Shown here: positions 6,660-18,129 of the stretch, in pieces
Position numbering within the stretch: the first letter of the stretch is position 1
Layout: every line of letters starts with the position of its first letter
Notes under the pieces: generated by a model
Told to the model about the DNA's origin: nothing
Databases searched by the model: none
The model's input: only the letters and a program-made list of their open reading frames with translations
Position numbers and translations under genes: made by a program
DNA from: Arenibacter echinorum
GTDB taxonomy: Bacteria > Bacteroidota > Bacteroidia > Flavobacteriales > Flavobacteriaceae
Direction: 5' to 3'
NCBI RefSeq assembly: GCF_003259375.1
Contig: NZ_QLLN01000004.1
Span: 124,001-188,000, forward strand
DNA length: 64,000 nt

Positions 6660-7280
6660 ATGAACGCACCTGATAAAAACAATCCTTTCCCCTTAGAAAA
6701 TTACGATCGACTTTGTTTTTTAAAGAACATTGTAAAGAACCCCAATATACTTGTAGGTGACTACACCTATTACGATGATTTTGAAGATGTAGCGAATTTT
6801 GAAAAAAATGTGAAATATCATTTCGACTTTGTGGGAGACAAGCTCATTATTGGAAAATTCTGTATGATCGCCTCCAATGTGACATTTATTATGAATGGGG
6901 CCAATCATTTAAGCAGTTCCGTTTCCTCCTATCCCTTCGCGATTTTTGGCAAAGATTGGAGCCACGCCATGGACGGCAAAAGCTATCCTACCAAAGGCAA
7001 TACGGTAATAGGAAATGATGTTTGGATCGGCTATAATGCCACCTTAATGCCAGGAATAACCATTGGCGATGGTGCTATAATTGCCAGCAATTCAACAGTT
7101 ACAAAAGATGTAACGCCATATAGTATTGTTGGGGGCAATCCAGCCGAATTGATCCGCAAGCGCTTTTCTGAAGCAGATATTGCCAAATTACTGGAGCTGA
7201 AATGGTGGGATTGGCCCATTGAAAAGATTACGGCCAATGTCCAAAATCTGACTGGCGATAAATTAAACGAATTGCTTTAA
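6660..7280 (+). CDS. CatB/Vat-type xenobiotic acetyltransferase (hexapeptide repeat)
   Basis: A 206-residue left-handed beta-helix acetyltransferase. It shows the XAT subfamily features in order: GDYTYYDD near the N-terminus, KLIIGKFCMIASNVTFIMNGANH (a hexapeptide coil containing the loop His of this family), KGNTVIGNDVWIGYNATLMPGITIGDGAIIASNSTVTKDV and YSIVGGNPAELIRKRF. These proteins use acetyl-CoA to acetylate hydroxyl groups; chloramphenicol and streptogramin A are the classical substrates, but many chromosomal members probably act on other molecules. A decayed paralogue lies at 21970-22327. Family secure, drug resistance not implied. Confidence 0.9.
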   Translation: MNAPDKNNPFPLENYDRLCFLKNIVKNPNILVGDYTYYDDFEDVANFEKNVKYHFDFVGDKLIIGKFCMIASNVTFIMNGANHLSSSVSSYPFAIFGKDWSHAMDGKSYPTKGNTVIGNDVWIGYNATLMPGITIGDGAIIASNSTVTKDVTPYSIVGGNPAELIRKRFSEADIAKLLELKWWDWPIEKITANVQNLTGDKLNELL

Positions 7281-7456
7281 AATTGCCATATCCAAGGATT
7301 TACCTATTTTTTGTTTATGATTCACTACCTTTTAGACACCCGATTCAAACATGTTTGATATTATATTTTCAATTAATGTAAACAAAGTAAATATATGAAC
7401 TGCAAAAACCGTGAATCTAGAGCTGATGCAAATTAAAATAGTAAAAACACAATTCC

Positions 7457-9508
7457 ATGAATAGGCAATCCATCTTAATACTACTTTCTGTATTTTGCTC
7501 CATGTTGACATTCCCTCAATCTTTTGAGCATAAAGTGGAGGCTGAGTTTGACCAACCAAATAACATCCGTCAATATCTGTGCAAGGTGGCCAGCGATATT
7601 ACCCATAATTCCTTAAATGATATTAAAAATTTGGAGGACTGGGAAGCAGTTCGGGAGGAACGGCATCAACAATTTTTGGAGATGTTGGGGCTACAAGGAA
7701 AGCCTTTTGAAGGAAAGAGGCCTCCTCTAAATGTGACCAAAACAGGAAGTATTCAAAAAAAGGGATACCGGATCGAAAAGCTGTACTACGAATCTTTGCC
7801 CGGTCTATATGTGCCCGCCAACCTCTACATTCCGAATGGAATCAAAAAACCGCTGCCCGCCATATTGTATGTTAGTGGCCATGCTCATTCCCAAAAATAC
7901 AACTATCAGGCACATGCCAAGAATTTCGCCGAAAACGGTTTTGTATGCCTAATTATCGAAACCATTCAACGAGGAGAGGTAGAAGGCGAACACTTAGGCC
8001 AGGAATCGAACGGATGGTTCCATTGGTATAGCCGCGGCTACAATCCTGCTGGCGTGGAAGTATGGAACGGCATTAGGGGCTTGGATCTATTGTCCGAAAT
8101 GCCAGAAGTAGATAAAAATAATCTAGGTGTAACCGGCATTTCGGGAGGAGGTTCCCAAAGCTGGTATCTGCCAGCTGCCGATTCAAGAATCAAGGCGGCG
8201 GCGGCCGTAGCCGGCGCAAGTTCGTTGGAAGGCCAAATAGCCCAAAAAACTATCGATGACCATTGCGACTGTATGATGCCGATCAACACCTATGGCATCG
8301 ACTTCTCCGACATAGGCGCATTGATCGCGCCACGACCATTTATGATTGCACAACCAAATCGTGACCTGTACTATTCCATCGTGGCTGTCCATACATTGTT
8401 CGACAAAACAAAACCCATTTACTCTTATTACGGAAAGCCAGAGAATTTGATTATGAAAGATGCTTCCGGAGGACATAGTTATGGATCGAAGGAAGAATTG
8501 CGCCCTGAAATTCTAGCGTTCTTTTTAAAGGAATTAAAGAGTAAAAATATCTCACCGGATAAATTGGGAGAAATCGACACTTCGTTGGAACTCTCAGAAG
8601 AAGCATTGAAAGCCTATGTAAATGGAGTACCAAAAGACGATAGAACAAAAACCATCCAGGATTCGTTCGTGGAGCTGGCCTCACCGCTAGAAATTAATAC
8701 GGTAGAACAACTGGATTCCTATAAAAACGAGGTAAAGGCTTTTTTGAGGGAAAAAACGTTTGGTGCCTTTCCTGAAAAACCAGCATCCTTGGACATGCGA
8801 TTGGATTTTATATCATCGAGCACATCAGGCAACGAAAGAAAAGATTACAATTTTGTTTCCGAGGAAGGATGGCGGTTGAAGCTCTCCCTACAAACGGGGC
8901 AACCGACGGATAATAACCAACCCCTTCTTTTGGTCTTAAAGAACCCTAATGAAGAACGTTATGAATCGGCCGCTTTAGCTAGTGGTCTGAAGGGGAAAGT
9001 GATCGTTGCCTATTTTGAGGCACGGGGAATTGGTGATACCGGTTGGTCTCCATCAGAACAGTGGCATATTCGCCGAGCTTCAGCTTGGACAGGAAGAACC
9101 ATTGCCTCCATGCGTGTTTATGACGTGTTACGCTGTTTGCAAGCCTTGCGCAGCATCCCAGGCGTAGATACCGACAACATTAGTATTCTCGCCCAGGGCG
9201 AAATGGCAGCCATTGCCTCATATACGGCCCTATTGGACGGTAATGTAAAATCTCTTCTGATTAAAGATCCCCCAGCAACCCAGAACGTTCCTAGCGACCC
9301 AACCGGCAAGGGCGAAGCCATAGAAATGCTCAATTGTTTGAGGGTGACCGATCTACCGCAAGTGGCTGGTTTGCAATTTCCCAATGAATTGGTTGTTATC
9401 GGCAATCAGCCCACAACTTACGATTGGACTAAAGAGCTTTACAATAATTTGGATAGGCCTGGTGCCTACAAATCCATTCAAAAAGTATCCCAATGGCTTG
9501 ATGATTAA
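7457..9508 (+). CDS. Secreted two-domain alpha/beta hydrolase (acetyl xylan esterase-like)
   Basis: A 683-residue protein with a signal peptide (MNRQSILILLSVFCSMLTFPQ). The first hydrolase domain (about 105-362) carries the nucleophile elbow G227-I-S229-G-G, the strand LPAILYVSGHAH, and a histidine in GGHSYG (H340); this is the layout of the acetyl xylan esterase/dienelactone hydrolase group. The second domain (about 465-683) has the same strand order, but its elbow reads A-Q-G581-E-M, so the serine is missing and the domain is probably non-catalytic. It is convergent with the dehydrogenase-aldolase operon and may supply that pathway by de-esterifying a carbohydrate outside the cell; this link is inference from position only. 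Confidence 0.8.
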   Translation: MNRQSILILLSVFCSMLTFPQSFEHKVEAEFDQPNNIRQYLCKVASDITHNSLNDIKNLEDWEAVREERHQQFLEMLGLQGKPFEGKRPPLNVTKTGSIQKKGYRIEKLYYESLPGLYVPANLYIPNGIKKPLPAILYVSGHAHSQKYNYQAHAKNFAENGFVCLIIETIQRGEVEGEHLGQESNGWFHWYSRGYNPAGVEVWNGIRGLDLLSEMPEVDKNNLGVTGISGGGSQSWYLPAADSRIKAAAAVAGASSLEGQIAQKTIDDHCDCMMPINTYGIDFSDIGALIAPRPFMIAQPNRDLYYSIVAVHTLFDKTKPIYSYYGKPENLIMKDASGGHSYGSKEELRPEILAFFLKELKSKNISPDKLGEIDTSLELSEEALKAYVNGVPKDDRTKTIQDSFVELASPLEINTVEQLDSYKNEVKAFLREKTFGAFPEKPASLDMRLDFISSSTSGNERKDYNFVSEEGWRLKLSLQTGQPTDNNQPLLLVLKNPNEERYESAALASGLKGKVIVAYFEARGIGDTGWSPSEQWHIRRASAWTGRTIASMRVYDVLRCLQALRSIPGVDTDNISILAQGEMAAIASYTALLDGNVKSLLIKDPPATQNVPSDPTGKGEAIEMLNCLRVTDLPQVAGLQFPNELVVIGNQPTTYDWTKELYNNLDRPGAYKSIQKVSQWLDD

Positions 9509-9561
9509 TTTTAATGAGTTCTTTACCCTGGCAATTCAAAAAAATGAATCCGAAATAAAAC

Positions 9562-9592
9562 TAACCCCCTAATGATCCTACTATTGGGGTTA
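9562..9592. terminator. Possible hairpin between convergent genes
   Basis: TAACCCC at 9562-9568 pairs with GGGGTTA at 9586-9592 across a 17-base loop, between the hydrolase stop and the dehydrogenase stop. There is no clear T-run, so a terminator role is weakly supported. Confidence 0.3.
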
Positions 9593-9678
9593 AGCCATAT
9601 GCCACTTTGGCCTTACGTATTTCTAATTGGTACCTAAAAACGGTTTTTGAAAAACTGGTCTGTAATTCTTGATTGCTC

Positions 9679-10986
9679 CTACAATACCCTGATGCCCGGT
9701 TTTGGTATGGAATAATTACCATCTTCCAAGGGTGCATTGGGCATCCTCATATCCCATGACATTGGATCAGGGACGATACTCAGGTCGGAGGCCTTGGCCT
9801 TATCCAATTCGATGATCTGGCCGGACTCTATTGCCATACGACCCATTATGGTGGTCATGCTGCTTTCAGCACCGAACTCAACGTTGTTCACATAGGGTTT
9901 GGAACCCAATATTGCCCCGATAAAAACATCCTGTTCGATTTGTGAAGATGAAGGGTCGTCCCTATCACGGTACCGCCAAAGCGCATTTCCCTGATTGTCG
10001 AGAAGCTGATAACGCTCATCGGCCCTTGCTTTGGCACCTTGAACATTGAACCCCATTCGGTTGGCGCAGTTGTCCATTTGTCGGCATTGTACGTGTAATT
10101 TCGAGCCATCGGCATATTCGTACTCCACATAATGATGATCGAATATTTCCCCATGATCTGGGCCTTTCAGCATTGCCCTTCCGCCCATTCCACTTGCTTT
10201 TATGGGGTAAGCCTGTTTTATCCAGTTGATGACATCGATCTGGTGTATGGCCTGCCCTGCCAATTGACCTCCCCAAAGCCAATTGAAATAATGCCAGTTA
10301 CTGATCTGGTATTCCAGTTCTGTCTGACCTTCTTTTCGTGGGTGTACGGTGGCTTTGCCCACATTATAATACACATCGGCAGACAGTACGTCGCCGATTT
10401 CCCCCGAATGTATTTTTGTTACCAATTCGTTCATGGCTATTTCGTACCGGAATTGCAGGCCTACAACAACGTTCAGCTTTTTCTCGGTCGCTTTTTCTCC
10501 GGTTTCGATTATATTGCGATAGCCAGGGCCATCTACGGCCAAAGGCTTTTCCAAAAACACATGCTTTCCGGCGTCGATGGCATGTTCAAAATGTTGGGGA
10601 CGAAATCCTGGAGGGGTGGCCAAGATGACCGCATCGCACTCCGCTATTACCTTTTCAAAAGCATCCAACCCTAAAAATTGGCGTTCTTTAGGTACAGCCA
10701 CCTGATCCGAAAATTTGATGGATACCTGTTGTAGGCTATTATCTAGTTCGTGTTGAAAAACATCGCCCATAGCAACCAACTGTACGGATTTCGAAGCGGT
10801 CAAGGCTTGAAAAATAGCTCCGGTTCCGCGACCGCCACAACCTACCAATCCTAGTTTAATTTTCTCCTGCCCCAGTACATTGGCACTTGAAAATATCGGT
10901 AAATGACTAAAGACCATGCCGGCTGCTAGGGTCTTGGCCGAGGTCTTTACAAAGCTTCTTCTATCGGTTTTATTTTGTTTTTTCAT
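9679..10986 (-). CDS. Gfo/Idh/MocA-family oxidoreductase with Tat signal
   Basis: A 435-residue NAD(P)-dependent dehydrogenase. The N-terminus has a twin-arginine signal (D-R9-R10-S-F-V-K) and hydrophobic stretch, so it is probably exported folded with its cofactor, as many Bacteroidota members of the family are. The Rossmann loop is G49-C-G-G-R-G54 and the family motif E146-K-P148 is intact. The C-terminal half has the open beta-sheet domain (GQAIHQIDVINWI, DHHYVEYEYADG). It is the last gene of a four-gene minus-strand run with an aldolase, an epimerase and a transporter, pointing to oxidation of a sugar, inositol-like or sugar-acid substrate that I cannot name. Confidence 0.88.
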   Translation of the reverse strand: MKKQNKTDRRSFVKTSAKTLAAGMVFSHLPIFSSANVLGQEKIKLGLVGCGGRGTGAIFQALTASKSVQLVAMGDVFQHELDNSLQQVSIKFSDQVAVPKERQFLGLDAFEKVIAECDAVILATPPGFRPQHFEHAIDAGKHVFLEKPLAVDGPGYRNIIETGEKATEKKLNVVVGLQFRYEIAMNELVTKIHSGEIGDVLSADVYYNVGKATVHPRKEGQTELEYQISNWHYFNWLWGGQLAGQAIHQIDVINWIKQAYPIKASGMGGRAMLKGPDHGEIFDHHYVEYEYADGSKLHVQCRQMDNCANRMGFNVQGAKARADERYQLLDNQGNALWRYRDRDDPSSSQIEQDVFIGAILGSKPYVNNVEFGAESSMTTIMGRMAIESGQIIELDKAKASDLSIVPDPMSWDMRMPNAPLEDGNYSIPKPGIRVL

Positions 10987-11046
10987 AATCGTTATTTTTA
11001 TTTTGTTCCTAGCATTATTATAATGGAAAAATTAAAATTGGAACAA

Positions 11047-12111
11047 CTAATCCACCATCCAATTCTCAATATTACTCCTTATAAAATCATCATCGTTCAG
11101 TTCGGGGTAATCTCGGTAAACCCGGTCGATTTCCTCTTTTTGTCCTTTGGAAAGTCCTTCATTTTCATCCAGGCACCATATTCCCTTTAAAATTCCTTGT
11201 CGGTATAATACCTCGTGAATGCCAGCTATACATCCATGAAAATTGTTGGCAGCATCAAAGAAAGCAGCATTCGAATCGGTTACAGCAAGGTTCAAGGTCA
11301 ATAGTTCCTTAGGCAGGGTACTTCCGCTCTTTTTTGCCTTTTTTATCTTGTCGAGCAGTTCCACGGCCTTGTTCGTCCAAACTGCCCAATGGCCCAGTAA
11401 TCCACCGACTATATCCTTGGTTACTGGTTTGTTATTGACGCTGAACTTATAGGTGCTCAATAGGTCATTGACAATATTATCATCGTTGCCCGTATAAAGT
11501 GCGATTTCATCGCATCGGGACGATTCACATACCGCCCTGACCACTTCCAAGGTCTGATAGCGGTTGAATGGGGCCATTTTTATGGCGTGAACATTCTTTA
11601 TTTCAGCAAAGGCCTTCCAAAAATCAAAACTCAATACCTTCCCTCCTACCGCTGGTTGCAGGTAAAAGCCGAATACGGGAATAACCTCGGCAATCTTCCG
11701 GGTACGCTCCAATAAAGCCTCTTCGGGCCAATCGCCCAATCCGTTTGTACTGACCAGCACAATGTCATACCCCAATTTAGCACATAATTTGGCTTCATTG
11801 ATAGCTTGTTCCGTATTGCCGCTAACCCCGGCCACTTTTATGAAGGGTCGAGTTAGATTCGCCATGTCTATTTCTTCGATTGCCAGTTCTAGCACTGTTC
11901 GGTACAATCCGATTTCAGGATCTCGTATTTGAAATTGGGTGGTATGTACGCCAATAGCAATGCCACCGGCACCGGAGGCCATATAATATCGGGTCAACAG
12001 CCTTTGTCTGGCTTCATCCAACTTACGGTCTGCGGTTAGGGCCAACGGGTGTGCCGGAATCACTGTGCCTTCATCTAATAATTCTTTTATTTTTGGATCT
12101 AAATCTTTCAT
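11047..12111 (-). CDS. Dihydrodipicolinate synthase-family aldolase/lyase
   Basis: A 354-residue TIM-barrel protein of the DHDPS/N-acetylneuraminate lyase superfamily. The Schiff-base lysine is probably K178 in AIKMAPFNR and the assisting tyrosine Y150 in FGFYLQPA. IPAHPLALTADRKLD at the N-terminus and VAGVSGNTEQAI are the usual early strands. It is longer than the roughly 290-residue dapA type, with a C-terminal extension (about 290-354). Members in catabolic clusters act on 2-keto-3-deoxy sugar acids or related hydroxy-keto acids. The gap to the upstream epimerase is 30 bp, indicating cotranscription. A role in lysine synthesis is unlikely in this setting. Confidence 0.82.
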   Translation of the reverse strand: MKDLDPKIKELLDEGTVIPAHPLALTADRKLDEARQRLLTRYYMASGAGGIAIGVHTTQFQIRDPEIGLYRTVLELAIEEIDMANLTRPFIKVAGVSGNTEQAINEAKLCAKLGYDIVLVSTNGLGDWPEEALLERTRKIAEVIPVFGFYLQPAVGGKVLSFDFWKAFAEIKNVHAIKMAPFNRYQTLEVVRAVCESSRCDEIALYTGNDDNIVNDLLSTYKFSVNNKPVTKDIVGGLLGHWAVWTNKAVELLDKIKKAKKSGSTLPKELLTLNLAVTDSNAAFFDAANNFHGCIAGIHEVLYRQGILKGIWCLDENEGLSKGQKEEIDRVYRDYPELNDDDFIRSNIENWMVD

Positions 12112-12141
12112 TTTTCTGAGTTCCTTTTAGGGTAATAAAAT

Positions 12142-13158
12142 TTAGAAATCCCCCCTTCGTTCTTGAAAATGGGTGGGCTTGCTGATTTCCTTTCCTCCGG
12201 ATTTTACCCATTCTACTGTCATCATGATCATCTCGTTCAGGGAAACAAATGGCTTCCCGAAAAGATCGAATGATCGCGAAGCATTGTTCAACAAGGCCGT
12301 TTCGGCAGGCTTGTTCTCAAAAATCGGCTTTTTTTCGAAATGTTTGCCGAATTGTTCGGCAAGCCATTGCACCGATATCGTTTCAGGACCTGTAATATTT
12401 AATTTATTCGCTGGGGATTGGCAATGCAGCAGGCTTCTAATGGCATATTCGTTGGCATCGCCCTGCCAGATCACATTTACGTGGCCCATACTCAAATCGA
12501 TGGGCTTTTCGGATATCACTTTTTTGGCTACCTCCAAAAGCACGCCGTATCTTAGATCCAGCGCATAGTTCAAACGGTACAATAACATTTTCGTGCCGTT
12601 CTTTACCGAAAAGTGCTCGAACACCCGCTCCCTGCCCAAACAAGACTGTGCATACTCCCCTATGGGCGAAGGTCTTACATTTTCCTTTGCACCACCGCTT
12701 TCGATGGGCATAAAGGGATAAATATTTCCGGTTGAAAACACTACTATATTGGAGTGCTTGTATTTTTCGGCAACTCTTCCTGGAAGATAGGCGTTCATCG
12801 CCCAAGTAAAATGCTCGTTGCCCGCCGTTCCAAATTTATTGCCGGCCATATAGATGACATTTTCGGTATCGGGCAGGCCGTTTAACGCGGCATCGTTCAG
12901 CAAATCGACCTTATGACATTCAATTCCGAAATTGGAAAGTTCGTTGTACATGGTCTCGTTCGAAAACCGGGATGCCCCCATTATCCTTTTAGAAATTCCT
13001 GCCTTATCAATGGCCTTTTTGAGCAATTTGGACAGGCTAGGGCCCATTTTTCCACCAAGGCCCAAAATCATGATATCGCCATGGATCTTGGCAACATCTG
13101 CTATCAGTCTTTCGGAAGGTTTCGATAATTTAAGCTCAAGTTCTTCAACAGTTTGCAT
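12142..13158 (-). CDS. NAD-dependent epimerase/dehydratase-like protein
   Basis: A 338-residue extended-SDR fold. The nucleotide-binding loop is G33-L-G-G-K-M-G39 after the strand DIMILG, followed by VIYMAGNKFGT and VVFSTGNIYPF. In the catalytic segment the tyrosine is present (Y169), but the lysine four residues later is Cys173 (YAQSC), so ordinary epimerase or dehydratase chemistry may be altered. The C-terminal substrate domain is present (LNITGPETISVQWLAEQFGKHF). It sits 3 bp after the transporter gene and 30 bp before the aldolase gene, within one operon. Fold secure, reaction open. Confidence 0.8.
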   Translation of the reverse strand: MQTVEELELKLSKPSERLIADVAKIHGDIMILGLGGKMGPSLSKLLKKAIDKAGISKRIMGASRFSNETMYNELSNFGIECHKVDLLNDAALNGLPDTENVIYMAGNKFGTAGNEHFTWAMNAYLPGRVAEKYKHSNIVVFSTGNIYPFMPIESGGAKENVRPSPIGEYAQSCLGRERVFEHFSVKNGTKMLLYRLNYALDLRYGVLLEVAKKVISEKPIDLSMGHVNVIWQGDANEYAIRSLLHCQSPANKLNITGPETISVQWLAEQFGKHFEKKPIFENKPAETALLNNASRSFDLFGKPFVSLNEMIMMTVEWVKSGGKEISKPTHFQERRGDF

Positions 13159-13161
13159 ATG

Positions 13162-14355
13162 CTATTTAATAAAAATGTTATATCCATTGGCCATGGCCAA
13201 AAATAATAATATCAACCAACCTAAGATCATCAGGACCTTTAAACCAATGCCCAATTCCATTTCTTTTCTTGCCGATTTTCCAAAGGCGATCAAAAGCAAC
13301 AACAGTCCGATCAAGGGTGATACGATAACCGTAAGGCCCTGTGCCACAACAATCAGTTCTACCGGCAAATTGCCAAAAACTATCGCTACCATCGCTCCGA
13401 TTACTATGACCAACATGACCATCACACGTACTTTTATAGATTCGAGTTTCATCCCGAACCCCAGCGCATCGGATATCAAAACACCGCCTAAGGTGGCATT
13501 TCCCAACAGGGAAGAAAAAGAGGCCGCAAAAAGCCCCAACATAAAGACCTTGGTGGCATAGGGCCCGAAAATCGGCTCCAATGCCATGCCCATTTCAGTG
13601 GCGCTATTGACCGCTATCCCCTTGGGAAATAAAACGGATGCACCGACCAAGAGTACGGTCGAGGTAATCACTCCCAAGATAACGATCCCAGTAATTCCTT
13701 CGCGTTCGTGCGATCTTGATTTGGCCTTCGTCCATCCTTTTTCCTGCACCAGATAGGATTGGTAAAAGGCACCGGCAATAGAAAAACTTGATGCTACCAA
13801 TGCTAAAGTCAGCATTTCGGAACCGTTCGGAATTCCAAAAGTGAATTGTTCCGCCAATCTTGAAAGATCCGGATTCGAAATGACCAGGGTAAGCATAAAG
13901 GATACTAGCATTAAGATGACCATACCGATCATTACTTTTTCGAGAATCTTAAAGAACGTCTTAAAAAATAGCAAGAAAATGGCGATGGCCGATATTCCTA
14001 TTATCCATGGGGTTGATGACATGGCCAAGGTCTCACTAAAGACCATTCCCGCACCTATGGAGTTTCCGGCTTGAAACGATGCCGCTACCAAAAAGAGTCC
14101 GACTCCGATCACAATGGCAACCCATCTTCCGTATGTGATGTGAATCTGTCGCAGTAACGAGATTTCGGATGCAAGGCCTATTCGTGTAGAAACAACAGTA
14201 AATGCACCCATGAACAAAACGCACAACGGCATTATCCACAGCAGTTGATATTCATAGTTCGCCCCGATTTTCGATGCCACTGCCAAACTACCTGGACCCA
14301 ATACCAAGGCCGCAGTAATAAAACCAGGACCAATAAGCGCGAAGATTTTTTTCAT
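13162..14355 (-). CDS. Nramp-fold transporter lacking the canonical metal-site motifs
   Basis: A 397-residue protein with about eleven membrane helices. The start (ALIGPGFITAALVLGPGSLAVASKIGA, residues 6-32) lines up with TM1 of Nramp/MntH proteins, but the metal-binding DPGN motif reads G20-P-G-S23. The TM6 region (about 183-204, SIAGAFYQSYLVQ) has no MPH motif. Both metal-coordinating helices therefore lack their ligands, and classical Mn/Fe uptake is unlikely. As first gene of the minus-strand operon, divergent from the enolase-superfamily gene, it is the obvious candidate importer for the pathway substrate; this is inference. It is usually named 'Nramp family divalent metal transporter' by homology alone. 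Confidence 0.8.
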   Translation of the reverse strand: MKKIFALIGPGFITAALVLGPGSLAVASKIGANYEYQLLWIMPLCVLFMGAFTVVSTRIGLASEISLLRQIHITYGRWVAIVIGVGLFLVAASFQAGNSIGAGMVFSETLAMSSTPWIIGISAIAIFLLFFKTFFKILEKVMIGMVILMLVSFMLTLVISNPDLSRLAEQFTFGIPNGSEMLTLALVASSFSIAGAFYQSYLVQEKGWTKAKSRSHEREGITGIVILGVITSTVLLVGASVLFPKGIAVNSATEMGMALEPIFGPYATKVFMLGLFAASFSSLLGNATLGGVLISDALGFGMKLESIKVRVMVMLVIVIGAMVAIVFGNLPVELIVVAQGLTVIVSPLIGLLLLLIAFGKSARKEMELGIGLKVLMILGWLILLFLAMANGYNIFIK

Positions 14356-14930
14356 TTTTTAAGTTGGTATGGATTGATATTGCAGTAATGTACTAAAAAT
14401 ATGACTTTGATTTCCAGTAAACAACCAGTCAGAGCACGACAGATTTCATTTTTTTTGTGGTATCTGTCTCCATCCATGGGAGGAAGGGCTTTGAGTGACT
14501 CGTTGATGAGAGTTACTAGGAAAAATATTTTTATGTTGCAAAAAGACTTCTCACTTACTCGTACCAAAAGAGAGGGTAAGGTTTATAGTCAGACTACAAT
14601 TCGGCAATGACTGAAAAGGTATTGTATGATCAAGAAAATTTGTCCTACACCTCATCCTGTTACTCCGCTATATCCGACTTAAAAAAAAACATATGTATAT
14701 TTAAGGATTCCCAACTATCTTCAAAGTGCAAACGGTATACCCCGTGAAATTCGGAAGCCTGGAACACCTTGAAGGATATAACCAAATAATGAACGGAAGT
14801 ACAATCCATGACCAAAAACCAACTATAGACTTATAAAACCTAGGGCGTTTGTAAACAAGACCACTGCGGCTAACGCTTTAGGTGACCTAGGACTATTTTT
14901 GAACCTTCAACATTTGGAAAAGAGAGAGAA
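14356..14930. other. Divergent control region of the catabolic cluster
   Basis: This 575-bp region between the divergent transporter and enolase-superfamily genes holds no convincing gene. An imperfect dyad, AGTGACTC (14494-14501) with GAGTTACT (14510-14517), has the size of a GntR- or LacI-type operator but no regulator gene is nearby. Short open frames here have no recognisable similarity. Confidence 0.35.
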
Positions 14931-16220
14931 ATGCAGACAAAAATCAAGATTAAGGACACAAGCTTAAATTTTGAAAGGGAATTACTCTACCCCTATCGCT
15001 TTGGGGGGAGCGCCGTCACCCAACTTTGGCAGACGGCCGCATGGCTACAAAGTGAATCGGGGGTTTCGAGAATAGGTCTTGGCACCCAGAGTCCCCTTTG
15101 GTCAGATCGAAGTGTGGCCGGCGCCCATTCCGAAAACGGGGCTAATGCGCTGATGTTCGCCATGAGCGAAAAGGCCTTGCAACTTATGAAAGGCATATCG
15201 TTTACGGATCCCATGGAATTGCTCGATACCCTTTTGACGGAAGTCCACGCTTACGGTAAAAAAATAACTGGCAAATCCGACCTCAGAAAAACCTTTACAT
15301 TAAACTCCCTAGTCTGCGTGGACAACGCAGCCTGGCTGCTATATGCCCATGAGAACAATTTTAAGACATTCGACGACATGATTCCTACGGAATACCGGCC
15401 CGGACTATCGTATAGAAATGAAAAGGTGGCGAGCATCCCTGCCTTTCCTGTGGGTACGGCGATCGAAAAAATAAAGGCAGCAGCCGATGAAGGCTATTTT
15501 ATCCTAAAGTTGAAAACGGGTTCCAAGGGCACCCAAAAAGAGATGTTGGCCCAAGATTTGGAATTCTTATCCAACGTACACAAAGCTATAGGGCATTATG
15601 AAACGCCCCATACCAAAGACGGTAAAATCCTCTATTACATCGACGCCAACGGACGGTATGGGTCCAAGGAAACCCTTTTACGCTTTTTAGACCATTCAAA
15701 AAAAATTGGGGCCTTCGACCAGATTGCCCTTATAGAGGAACCGCTGGGGGAAAAAGATGAATCGTATGTTGGTGATGTAGGGGTAACGATAGCAGCCGAT
15801 GAAAGTGCGCATACCGTTCAGGATGCTATTGATCGCGTGGAGCAGGGGTATGGCGCCATTGTTGTAAAGGCCATAGCCAAGACCTTAAGTATGACCTTGA
15901 AAATCGTACAGGCCTGCCATGAAAGAAAAGTTCCTTGTATTAGTGCTGACCTTACGGTGAATCCCATCTTGGTGGATTGGAACAAATCGATTGCTGCCCG
16001 TTTGGCACCACTACCTATGATGAATTTCGGGCTATTGGAAACCAACGGCCATCAGTTCTATAAAAACTGGAGTATACTCGAAACCTATCACCCGCGGGCA
16101 GGTGCGGAATGGACTCAGACCAAAAATGGGGTCTACACAACTGGTAAGTCATTTTACGAAGAAAGTGCTGGTATATTTCTTACTTCAGACCATTACGAAT
16201 CTTTATTTATTAAAGGATAA
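14931..16220 (+). CDS. Enolase-superfamily enzyme (mandelate racemase/muconate lactonizing type)
   Basis: A 429-residue protein with the enolase-superfamily barrel. Visible active-site elements are K193-L-K195 (KxK at the end of the second barrel strand), metal ligands D238 (YIDANG), E269/E270 (LIEEP) and D290-E291 (IAADES), and K313/K317 further on. The KxK motif and acidic triad fit acid-sugar dehydratases, racemases or cycloisomerases. It lacks a signal peptide, so it acts in the cytoplasm. Divergent from the transporter-epimerase-aldolase-dehydrogenase operon across a shared 575-bp control region, it probably performs the dehydration or racemisation step that feeds the aldolase. Exact substrate cannot be read from sequence. 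Confidence 0.85.
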   Translation: MQTKIKIKDTSLNFERELLYPYRFGGSAVTQLWQTAAWLQSESGVSRIGLGTQSPLWSDRSVAGAHSENGANALMFAMSEKALQLMKGISFTDPMELLDTLLTEVHAYGKKITGKSDLRKTFTLNSLVCVDNAAWLLYAHENNFKTFDDMIPTEYRPGLSYRNEKVASIPAFPVGTAIEKIKAAADEGYFILKLKTGSKGTQKEMLAQDLEFLSNVHKAIGHYETPHTKDGKILYYIDANGRYGSKETLLRFLDHSKKIGAFDQIALIEEPLGEKDESYVGDVGVTIAADESAHTVQDAIDRVEQGYGAIVVKAIAKTLSMTLKIVQACHERKVPCISADLTVNPILVDWNKSIAARLAPLPMMNFGLLETNGHQFYKNWSILETYHPRAGAEWTQTKNGVYTTGKSFYEESAGIFLTSDHYESLFIKG

Positions 16221-16401
16221 GCAAACTAGTTGCCTGGCCATTAAATTAATATCTTCTTAAAACCAAAAAACAACCAGAAGGACACCAATAAAAAAGAATT
16301 GATCTATTTCCAATTTCTATGTTCCCCACTTGCAAATACGCAGGCAATACTAACCCTAGAGAAACTTTCTACAAAACAATAGCCGGCACCAGCGACGGAC
16401 A

Positions 16402-16513
16402 ATCGAATTTTTCCTGACCCTTATCGCAGATAATGCCATTGCCCCTAGGTATGGCAGTCGTAGGTAGTCCCTCTTCTTTCAACACAAAATAGAAACCATA
16501 AAAAAAGAACAAT
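16402..16513 (+). pseudogene. Relic of the 3' end of an NmrA-like SDR gene
   Basis: In frame, this stretch reads IEFFLTLIADNAIAPRYGS, a TAG stop, then SLFFQHKIETIKKRT. It matches the last 37 codons of the SDR gene at 5415-6299 at most positions and nothing else of that gene is recognisable upstream. Similarity continues past the position of the SDR stop codon into the following spacer. The region from 16221 to 16400 and from about 16580 to 16722 holds nothing else I can identify. Confidence 0.85.
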
Positions 16514-16722
16514 GGGTAATTATCAATTTTTTGCGGGAACGCTTTTCAGGAAATGACCTTTATTTTTATGGTAGGCCTATCAACGCTTTTCCAGGAATAG
16601 CAAGCTCCTATACTTCCCGATTTTTGGATTTAATCCGCAGCTATTGGGTGAATTTCGGTAGTAGAATAATTCTGCATTTAAAGTTCTAAGAACCCTATTT
16701 TTGGTCCCTTCACAAAATACCC

Positions 16723-18129
16723 CTACATTTTTTCTGGATTAACGGCCAAACTATTGAACAACTTGGCTTTTGCCGAATAATACTTATTCCTAACCTCATT
16801 CTGTTTGAGCTCGGCATCTATGAGTTTGCTTTCCCTAGTATTTATTAAAAACAAGGAACTTTCACCAAAACTAAATTTACGTTCCTCAGCAGTGAGCAGT
16901 ATATTATAATTTCCCACGATGTCATTTATAAGCACATTTTGCTTTTCAAAAGACTCCAGTTCCCTAAAAATGGCAACAATTTTGTTTCTAATCTGTATTT
17001 GTGCATTGTCCAATTCAAACTTGGCATCCTCCAACTTGATCTTCGCCAGTTTTAAATCCCCACGTTCCTTCCTTAAAAATAAAGGCAAATTTATAGACAA
17101 ACCGCCTTTATAGTCCTGAGGTTCAAAGGCATTCAAAGTAACAGGTTCAGTTGTTAAAAAGTTGTATTCCAGATCTATTTTGGGCAATAACTTATTTGCT
17201 TTAAGTCGCTTTTCTACGGTGAGCCCGTCAATTTTGTAACCCAGAGATTTTAACTTGGGATGATTTTCCAAATTAAAACTGTCCAAAGGTTTCCCTAGTA
17301 TTTCCAAGGTGGCATCTATATCTTCCCCTAAATTGACATCTGGTATTACATTTGGCTTTAATTCCACCGGAAGGTTGTCTCCCAACCAAAGAAAATTGGA
17401 CAATTCCAAGGAGCTTTTTACGAAACGTATTTTGGCCTGTTCCAGATTCAAGGCACGGTCCTGAACCGCAATTTTTGCCTCTACGGTATCAATGGCGGCT
17501 ATTTCACCTGCCAATGCGGTGGTTAGGACACCCTCAAAACGCATTTGTGCGCTTGAAAAGAAGTTGTTCAAAATTTGACTGTCCTGATAGGCCTGCAACC
17601 ATTGGAAGTAGGCAAGTGATGCTTCGAACAGTATTTGGTTGACCTGCAGATCCCTATCGGCCTTGGTCTGTTCCCTTAACAACTTGGCCTGTTTCAAGGT
17701 GGCCATGCGTTCATTGATCCAAAAACCTTGGCCAACGGACATGGACACGCCGGCACTATATAAACCATCATCCGGGACATTTTGCGATGGATTTAAATAA
17801 TCCCCATCATTCTGTTCAAAATTACCCTTCAATTCCAGGCCATACCAAGTAGGTATCTTAAAGGCAGCATTAAGTTGATCATAATACTCCGTTCCCTTGA
17901 ATTCCTTTCGATCGTAATCCACCTCTATTTTAGGGTCGAAACCCCCTCGTGAGCGCATTAGGTTAGCCTGCCCAATATCAATCTTCAGCTCGGCCTGTTT
18001 GGCAATAGGATGGTATTTTTTAACATAGCCCAGATATTCCTTAAAATTTAGGATAAGCTTATCCTGTTCTTGGGCACTTACCCCCAAGAAAAGTATTAAA
18101 AATAGACAGCACAAATACTTTTGCATCAT
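16723..18129 (-). CDS. TolC-family outer-membrane efflux protein
   Basis: A 468-residue protein with a signal peptide (MMQKYLCCLFLILFLGVSAQ) and two long helical halves with strand-forming segments typical of TolC (LKQAKLLREQTKADRDLQVNQILFEASLAYFQWLQAYQD; QIRNKIVAIFRELESFEKQN). TolC proteins form a trimeric channel-tunnel across the outer membrane. The start codon overlaps the end of the HlyD gene by 4 bp, so the two are translationally coupled, and this is the last gene of the export operon. Confidence 0.88.
   Translation of the reverse strand: MMQKYLCCLFLILFLGVSAQEQDKLILNFKEYLGYVKKYHPIAKQAELKIDIGQANLMRSRGGFDPKIEVDYDRKEFKGTEYYDQLNAAFKIPTWYGLELKGNFEQNDGDYLNPSQNVPDDGLYSAGVSMSVGQGFWINERMATLKQAKLLREQTKADRDLQVNQILFEASLAYFQWLQAYQDSQILNNFFSSAQMRFEGVLTTALAGEIAAIDTVEAKIAVQDRALNLEQAKIRFVKSSLELSNFLWLGDNLPVELKPNVIPDVNLGEDIDATLEILGKPLDSFNLENHPKLKSLGYKIDGLTVEKRLKANKLLPKIDLEYNFLTTEPVTLNAFEPQDYKGGLSINLPLFLRKERGDLKLAKIKLEDAKFELDNAQIQIRNKIVAIFRELESFEKQNVLINDIVGNYNILLTAEERKFSFGESSLFLINTRESKLIDAELKQNEVRNKYYSAKAKLFNSLAVNPEKM

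Follow-up and report, generated by a model that had tools for sequence, protein, structure and literature searches.

The cargo of Nramp-related transporters is debated in the excerpted literature, with Mg2+ assigned to NRMT and 5-oxoproline or Mn2+ disputed for PxpT/YcsG. The available text of one report places PxpT in the NRAMP family without excluding a metal role, and describes a pxpT deletion that abolishes growth of C. glutamicum on 5-oxoproline and was complemented (PMC13274462). NrmT, which has an MgtE-like partner, carries Mg2+ according to the excerpt of PMC4072509, and Nramp-related or orphan outgroup proteins devoid of the metal motifs are mentioned in the excerpts of PMC12873925 and PMC10606218. 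The 64,000-nucleotide stretch of Arenibacter echinorum analyzed here (the window; positions 124001–188000 of contig NZ_QLLN01000004.1, in a genome of 5.19 Mb) harbors a gene for an Nramp-fold transporter (NRA) that is followed by genes for a protein of extended-SDR fold (SDR), a DHDPS/N-acetylneuraminate-lyase-like protein (DHD) and a Gfo/Idh/MocA oxidoreductase (GFO). NRA–SDR–DHD, joined here by GFO, probably forms a catabolic module in which NRA imports an organic acid and SDR and DHD break it down. The module is real and conserved, and the transporter is its surprising part. A literature search covering titles and the openings of abstracts revealed no description of an NRA–SDR–DHD module among the matches listed.

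The four genes run on the minus strand in the order NRA (13162–14355), SDR (12142–13158), DHD (11047–12111) and GFO (9679–10986), separated by 3, 30 and 60 bp, respectively. NRA, the first gene of the operon, matched the Pfam family Nramp with 191 bits, above cut-off, DHD matched Pfam DHDPS (27 bits), and GFO matched Pfam GFO_IDH_MocA and carries a twin-arginine leader. SDR showed no Pfam match at E 0.001 and no NCBIfam match and was assigned from its predicted model. Together with the flanking hydrolase-like (HYD) and enolase-superfamily (ENO) genes, the cluster comprises six genes, five of which are assigned by Pfam; all six, and the minus-strand gaps, lie where the original prediction had placed them, in agreement with the list of open reading frames (ORFs). 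Promoter- and terminator-like sites were no more abundant at the cluster than in shuffled sequences.

A scan of one genome per species with 14 aligned DHD proteins gave at least 594 matching stretches, at least 570 of them encoding a DHD relative. The best 80 were taken as loci (sorted by record title into 32 from Bacteroidota/Balneolota and 48 others, mostly Bacillota), so that the sample leans to close relatives. Ten window proteins were then compared with the 80 loci by tblastn (threshold >60 bits), which detected SDR in 80, NRA in 29, GFO in 9, ENO in 4 and HYD in 1. The control neighbors from the window (amidohydrolase, NmrA-like, Vat-like and TolC-like) gave no match >60 bits in any of the 80 loci, and with 80/80 against none, the adjacency of SDR and DHD is far beyond chance. 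Clustering of the mechanically called ORFs recovered SDR in 72 and DHD in 79 of the 80 loci, both being found in all 80 by tblastn. SDR preceded DHD in every locus, with a gap of −5 to 88 bp as estimated from tblastn ends, and by the same estimate NRA lay upstream of SDR within 150 bp in 28 of the 29 loci that contain it. NRA was present in 27 of the 32 Bacteroidota/Balneolota loci, which bears out the transporter as an operon member, and in 2 of the 48 other loci; two of the five Bacteroidota/Balneolota loci without it (L028 and L069) run into a contig edge. Comparison of the loci thus defines the conserved unit as the SDR–DHD pair, with NRA added in Bacteroidota/Balneolota and GFO in some Flavobacteriaceae; HYD lies outside it, as does ENO except in near relatives and three further loci. 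The uncharacterized catabolic operon proposed earlier is therefore retained in this narrower form, and the expected co-occurrence of all five genes fails, ENO being present in only 4/80 loci.

Since the 80 loci had been chosen through DHD, NRA was searched independently. NRA-like proteins scoring at least 218 bits were found in 9 of 299 Flavobacteriaceae genomes (10 copies); the next-best score, 138 bits, was that of a PxpT-like protein (gene L103_07) encoded in the window's own genome. DHD was found at E <1e-40 in 10 of the 299 genomes, one copy being partial (G227), and all nine NRA genomes fall among these ten (hypergeometric P of 2e-16, a value that ignores kinship; the two genome lists carry the same handles and were taken as one sample). 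A phylum-wide sample yielded NRA at E 1e-60 in 4 of 395 genomes, one being the window's own. Every close NRA copy (13/13) had an SDR gene at a distance of at most 1.2 kb. The two genes were immediate neighbors in 11 of these cases, with an M20-like gene intervening in G115 and DHD in G184, and DHD shared the stretch with NRA in 13/13, at most ∼3.2 kb away. Among DHD proteins assigned to a named organism, the closest (96%) is from a metagenome-assembled genome labeled Arenibacter algicola. Partial DHD, NRA and GFO sequences were also observed at a contig end of the same genus (L236 14384–15497, genome G212), where two in-frame stops in the DHD piece mark an additional, degraded module copy close to an open copy.

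Sequence comparison of NRA with 60 Nramp regions, hand-picked from among the best-scoring matches (L151, L184 and L186 were missed by the query set and are uncounted), showed GPGS in the first transmembrane segment (TM1) where canonical Nramps have DPGN. When 93 family members were aligned, all 30 NRA sequences (window and 29 ORFs) had Gly in place of the metal-ligand Asp of TM1. The remaining metal-site columns are likewise changed in 30/30, N to S or K, M to S and H to A or V, as against D/N/M/H kept in 18/18 sampled canonical Nramps, and NRA accordingly contains neither the DPGN (TM1) nor the MPH (TM6) motif of a canonical Nramp. Gly also occupies the TM1 Asp column in 16/16 PxpT-like and 4/4 GTGS-type proteins, and Asp is retained in 15/15 NRMT-like proteins, as in the 18 canonical ones; this comparison covers PxpT-like proteins of the present sample, named by their pxp neighbor. 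The best PDB sequence matches of NRA were 7qia (67 bits), presumably EleNRMT, and MntH chains that we take to be DraNramp, in which DPGN aligns to GPGS. An unrooted maximum-likelihood tree placed NRA, together with one identical sequence drawn from a second sample, in a group of its own apart from the canonical, NRMT-like, PxpT-like and GTGS-type proteins, with support of 93/95, slightly below the level that the program marks with a star. The window genome carries five Nramp-family members, NRA included; the others are located beside pxpABC, beside a KDPG-type aldolase gene, beside Gfo/Idh and NagA-/NagB-like genes, and, in one case, without a clear link.

The missing metal-binding residues of NRA and its pairing with two uncharacterized enzymes suggest the import of an organic nutrient, and an organic solute appears a more likely cargo than a metal, as judged from the operon context and the loss of the metal site. 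It is unlikely that NRA serves to provide metalloenzymes of the cluster, e.g., M20 hydrolases, or the cell at large with a divalent metal (Mn2+, Mg2+), the gene order reflecting co-regulation only. Such a role would agree with the family annotation of NRA, with the carriage of Mg2+ by some Nramp-related proteins (excerpt of PMC4072509) and with YcsG, a relative of PxpT, which is reported in the available text of PMC10448178 to raise cellular Mn2+ in B. subtilis as an Mn2+ importer, its 5-oxoproline role being questioned there; if so, a protein may lose DPGN and still transport metal. It is opposed by the ligand position itself, Gly in every NRA and Asp in every canonical and NRMT-like protein sampled, by the absence of MgtE_N and iron repressors among the 25 listed of 68 partner families of Bacteroidota loci, and by the lack of any riboswitch or other Rfam match in 7000–17000 at E values of up to 1. 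To our knowledge, DHDPS and SDR proteins are not metal enzymes either.

The genes accompanying the different Nramp-related families were compared on the basis of tables listing 25 of 45 (canonical), 25 of 38 (NRMT-like) and 25 of 36 (Gly-type) partner families. The scans covered proteins of up to 900 aa; one longer, oxoprolinase-like partner was seen by eye in L185. An iron-dependent repressor with a FeoA domain accounted for 6 of the 38 partners of canonical Nramps, MgtE_N/CBS for 4 of the 25 partners of NRMT-like proteins, and pxpA, pxpB and pxpC for 17/82 each among the partners of Gly-type proteins, a sample dominated by PxpT-like loci (17/27). Further Gly-type partners were Gfo/Idh (2/82) and KDPG aldolase, 3-keto-disaccharide hydrolase, NagA-like and NagB-like proteins (1/82 each). 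It is an evenly balanced possibility that the Gly-type clades (NRA, PxpT-like and GTGS-type) are organic-solute carriers and the Asp-keeping clades carry metals, NRA representing a new substrate class, an oxidized sugar-type acid. Members of the clade with the GTGS motif were observed near NagA-like, NagB-like, Gfo/Idh or 3-keto-disaccharide hydrolase genes or an ENO relative (L105, L027, L029 and L231). A DUF2891 protein adjoins PxpT-like transporters (6/82 partners; L103, L159, L160, L162, L167 and L176, the loci being assigned by similarity to the first row).

DHD keeps the Schiff-base Lys178 and Tyr150 in 80/80 sequences (window and 79 ORFs), in line with the DHDPS-like aldolase that had been proposed, and its predicted model, a TIM barrel with the Schiff-base lysine and active-site tyrosine in place, is consistent with the DHDPS/NAL superfamily. 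Identification of DHD as DapA or KdgD was rejected, as the scores fall far below the curated cut-offs (20.5 bits against 206.15 for TIGR00674, DapA). The predicted model of SDR has the dinucleotide-binding Rossmann fold of an extended SDR, the fold matches of the models being drawn from a second-look library only. The GxxGxxG loop of SDR is conserved (G33 and G36 in 72/73 sequences, with one gap, and G39 in 73/73; window and 72 ORFs). Of the YxxxK motif, Tyr169 is kept in 73/73 and the lysine at position 173 in 0/73, the window protein having Cys173. The twin-arginine motif RRxF of GFO was found in 8/8 sequences (window and 7 ORFs), so the Tat-exported dehydrogenase of the original prediction agrees with the leader as judged from the motif. 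A gene 72–83% identical to GFO follows DHD in L024–L027, and GFO is an accessory module member, mainly of Flavobacteriaceae.

For the module we infer an organic-solute cargo, an inward direction of transport, the class of the substrate and the following order of steps. An oxidized sugar or amino-sugar acid would be formed outside the cytoplasm by an exported Gfo/Idh enzyme or by glucose/sorbosone dehydrogenase–cytochrome enzymes, and NRA, an Nramp-fold carrier without the metal site, would bring the acid in. SDR, with its dinucleotide-binding loop kept and the usual catalytic lysine lost, could modify the imported acid, whereupon DHD may form a Schiff base through Lys178 and split off or release a pyruvate-type keto acid. 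PxpT is a published precedent from another clade, through the 5-oxoproline role described in the available text of its report.

The class of substrate was approached through the operon partners. Among 76 same-strand partners in Bacteroidota/Balneolota loci (DHD, SDR and NRA excluded; 25 of 68 families listed), Gfo/Idh proteins and cytochrome c domains occurred 10 times each, glucose/sorbosone dehydrogenases 9 times and M20 hydrolases 5 times. For the other loci, 68 of 155 partners were scanned, members of seven already-named families and a few more having been excluded by hand (25 of 71 families listed); these included seven solute-binding proteins and three heparinase II/III proteins. Within the 48 other loci, serine dehydratase subunits lay within 4 kb in 13, M20 genes were near in 13 and GGDEF-like genes in 24, and one tested member of each dehydratase subunit scored above its curated cut-off. 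These partners, rich in sugar oxidation in Bacteroidota/Balneolota, favor an oxidized sugar or amino-sugar acid that would arise outside the cytoplasm. An amide or N-acyl amino compound is the main rival to the sugar-acid substrate; in this tentative alternative, M20 would free the amine, L-serine dehydratase would remove it and NRA, like PxpT, would carry the amide-containing acid. The presence of M20 family f4 in 22/80 loci, the serine dehydratase subunits in 13/48, further M20-like genes seen by eye in L237–L239 and, as far as the excerpted report goes, the PxpT precedent all accord with it; the window cluster itself has no M20 gene, and sugar-oxidation genes outnumber M20 among the Bacteroidota operon partners.

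A number of findings, along with the report on YcsG, weigh against an organic-acid import module. NRA is missing from 46 of the 48 loci outside Bacteroidota/Balneolota, and three Bacteroidota loci with open flanks (L059, L083 and L097) contain the SDR–DHD pair without it; in loci of this kind the substrate is perhaps imported by other carriers. The varied partner genes point to no single substrate, and it is possible that SDR catalyzes no redox reaction. Regarding the Gly-type clades, the catabolic partners other than pxp all stem from the window's own genome, and Gly-type proteins without a catabolic partner are exemplified by L106, L177, L179 and L180. The separation from Asp-keeping proteins is also unclean in L168, where an NRMT-like protein lies on the same strand as galactose- and lysine-pathway genes.

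The enolase-superfamily gene ENO (14931–16220, plus strand; Pfam MR_MLE_C, 44 bits) is a divergent neighbor of the operon. It had been proposed to act as an acid-sugar dehydratase whose 2-keto-3-deoxy product DHD would then cleave. ENO does adjoin the module in the window, in L023 (on the contig of G225 and L235) and in L236 of the same genus, and lies near it in L066, L096 and L098. Outside these cases, four of which make up its 4/80 loci, seven ENO relatives in other genomes had no NRA, SDR or DHD match within 1.5 kb. MR-type acid-sugar dehydratases have a His–Asp dyad on the sixth and seventh strands, and members of the muconate-lactonizing/dipeptide-epimerase subgroup have KxK together with another lysine and three acidic residues as metal ligands. 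ENO fits the latter, with K193, K195, D238, E269, E270, D290 and K313 in 121/121 sequences (window and the best 120 of 4,971 matches), a KxK…D…EE…D…K arrangement that we take to be the subgroup pattern; the positions of the dyad, placed by sequence spacing, are occupied by Lys313 (121/121) and Asp340. A twin-arginine motif was moreover present in 104 of 111 ENO relatives of at least 440 aa among the best 120. On co-occurrence and residues, the dehydratase pathway via ENO was rejected and is considered very improbable. Identification of ENO as MenC or L-Ala-D/L-Glu epimerase was also rejected, the scores being far below the curated cut-offs.

The window ENO, its nearest relatives P0001–P0003 and P0008 are leaderless 429-aa forms. 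The region before ENO (14830–14931, plus strand) contains what is apparently the remnant of a twin-arginine leader in another frame, as judged by eye against P0004 and P0009, and had no match among plasmids; in the window lineage the enzyme has perhaps been relocated to the cytoplasm. An ENO relative (53%) was observed directly after pxpABC-like genes, recognized by eye, in L229 (3362–7454), so that members of the ENO family may have a role in the metabolism of amides or amino acids. On the other side, the convergent neighbor HYD (7457–9508, plus strand) encodes an AXE1/S15-type alpha/beta hydrolase (Pfam AXE1, 29 bits, covering the first part only, residues 97–260; PDB 6goc, 49 bits). It accompanies the module in 1/80 loci, which gives no support to the hydrolase as a pathway member. 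A Vat-like hexapeptide acetyltransferase (6660–7280, plus strand) reached 284 bits against a family cut-off of 300 and is perhaps an intrinsic relative of xenobiotic acetyltransferases in this apparently marine bacterium.

SDR–DHD is a widespread enzyme couple (at least 570 stretches with DHD relatives) for which no reaction was found. A second, independent catabolic operon built around a Gly-type clade offers a direct test of organic-acid carriage by the Nramp fold and of whether one residue predicts such carriage; if the Gly-type clades as a whole do carry organic solutes, many proteins at present annotated as metal transporters would be nutrient carriers. Compared with the enzymes described, SDR differs from extended SDRs such as TerB (6nd7), GalE and RmlB in the loss of the YxxxK lysine throughout its relatives and in its lack of a family match. 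DHD, with 354 aa and 16–20% identity to DHDPS/N-acetylneuraminate lyase proteins among the matches listed, has HxTQ in place of GTTGE, presumably the motif of the DHDPS family at that position.

Compared with the transporters, NRA shares PF01566 with canonical Nramp/MntH proteins but lacks the DPGN/MPH residues in 30/30. It resembles NRMT in being Nramp-related without the DPGN/MPH pair, and 7qia is its best PDB sequence match; however, NRMT-like proteins keep the TM1 Asp and have MgtE_N partners (4/25), whereas NRA has Gly, with neither MgtE_N among the window genes scanned nor an Rfam match in 7000–17000, and is not grouped with them. The likeness to PxpT/YcsG lies in an Nramp-fold protein encoded within a catabolic operon, and the sampled PxpT-like proteins share the Gly with NRA. 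NRA nevertheless forms a separate tree group, with GPGS or GPSK for GPGT and a different TM6 motif, and no pxpABC adjoins it in the window; its operon has SDR–DHD in place of the pxpABC of pxpTABC.

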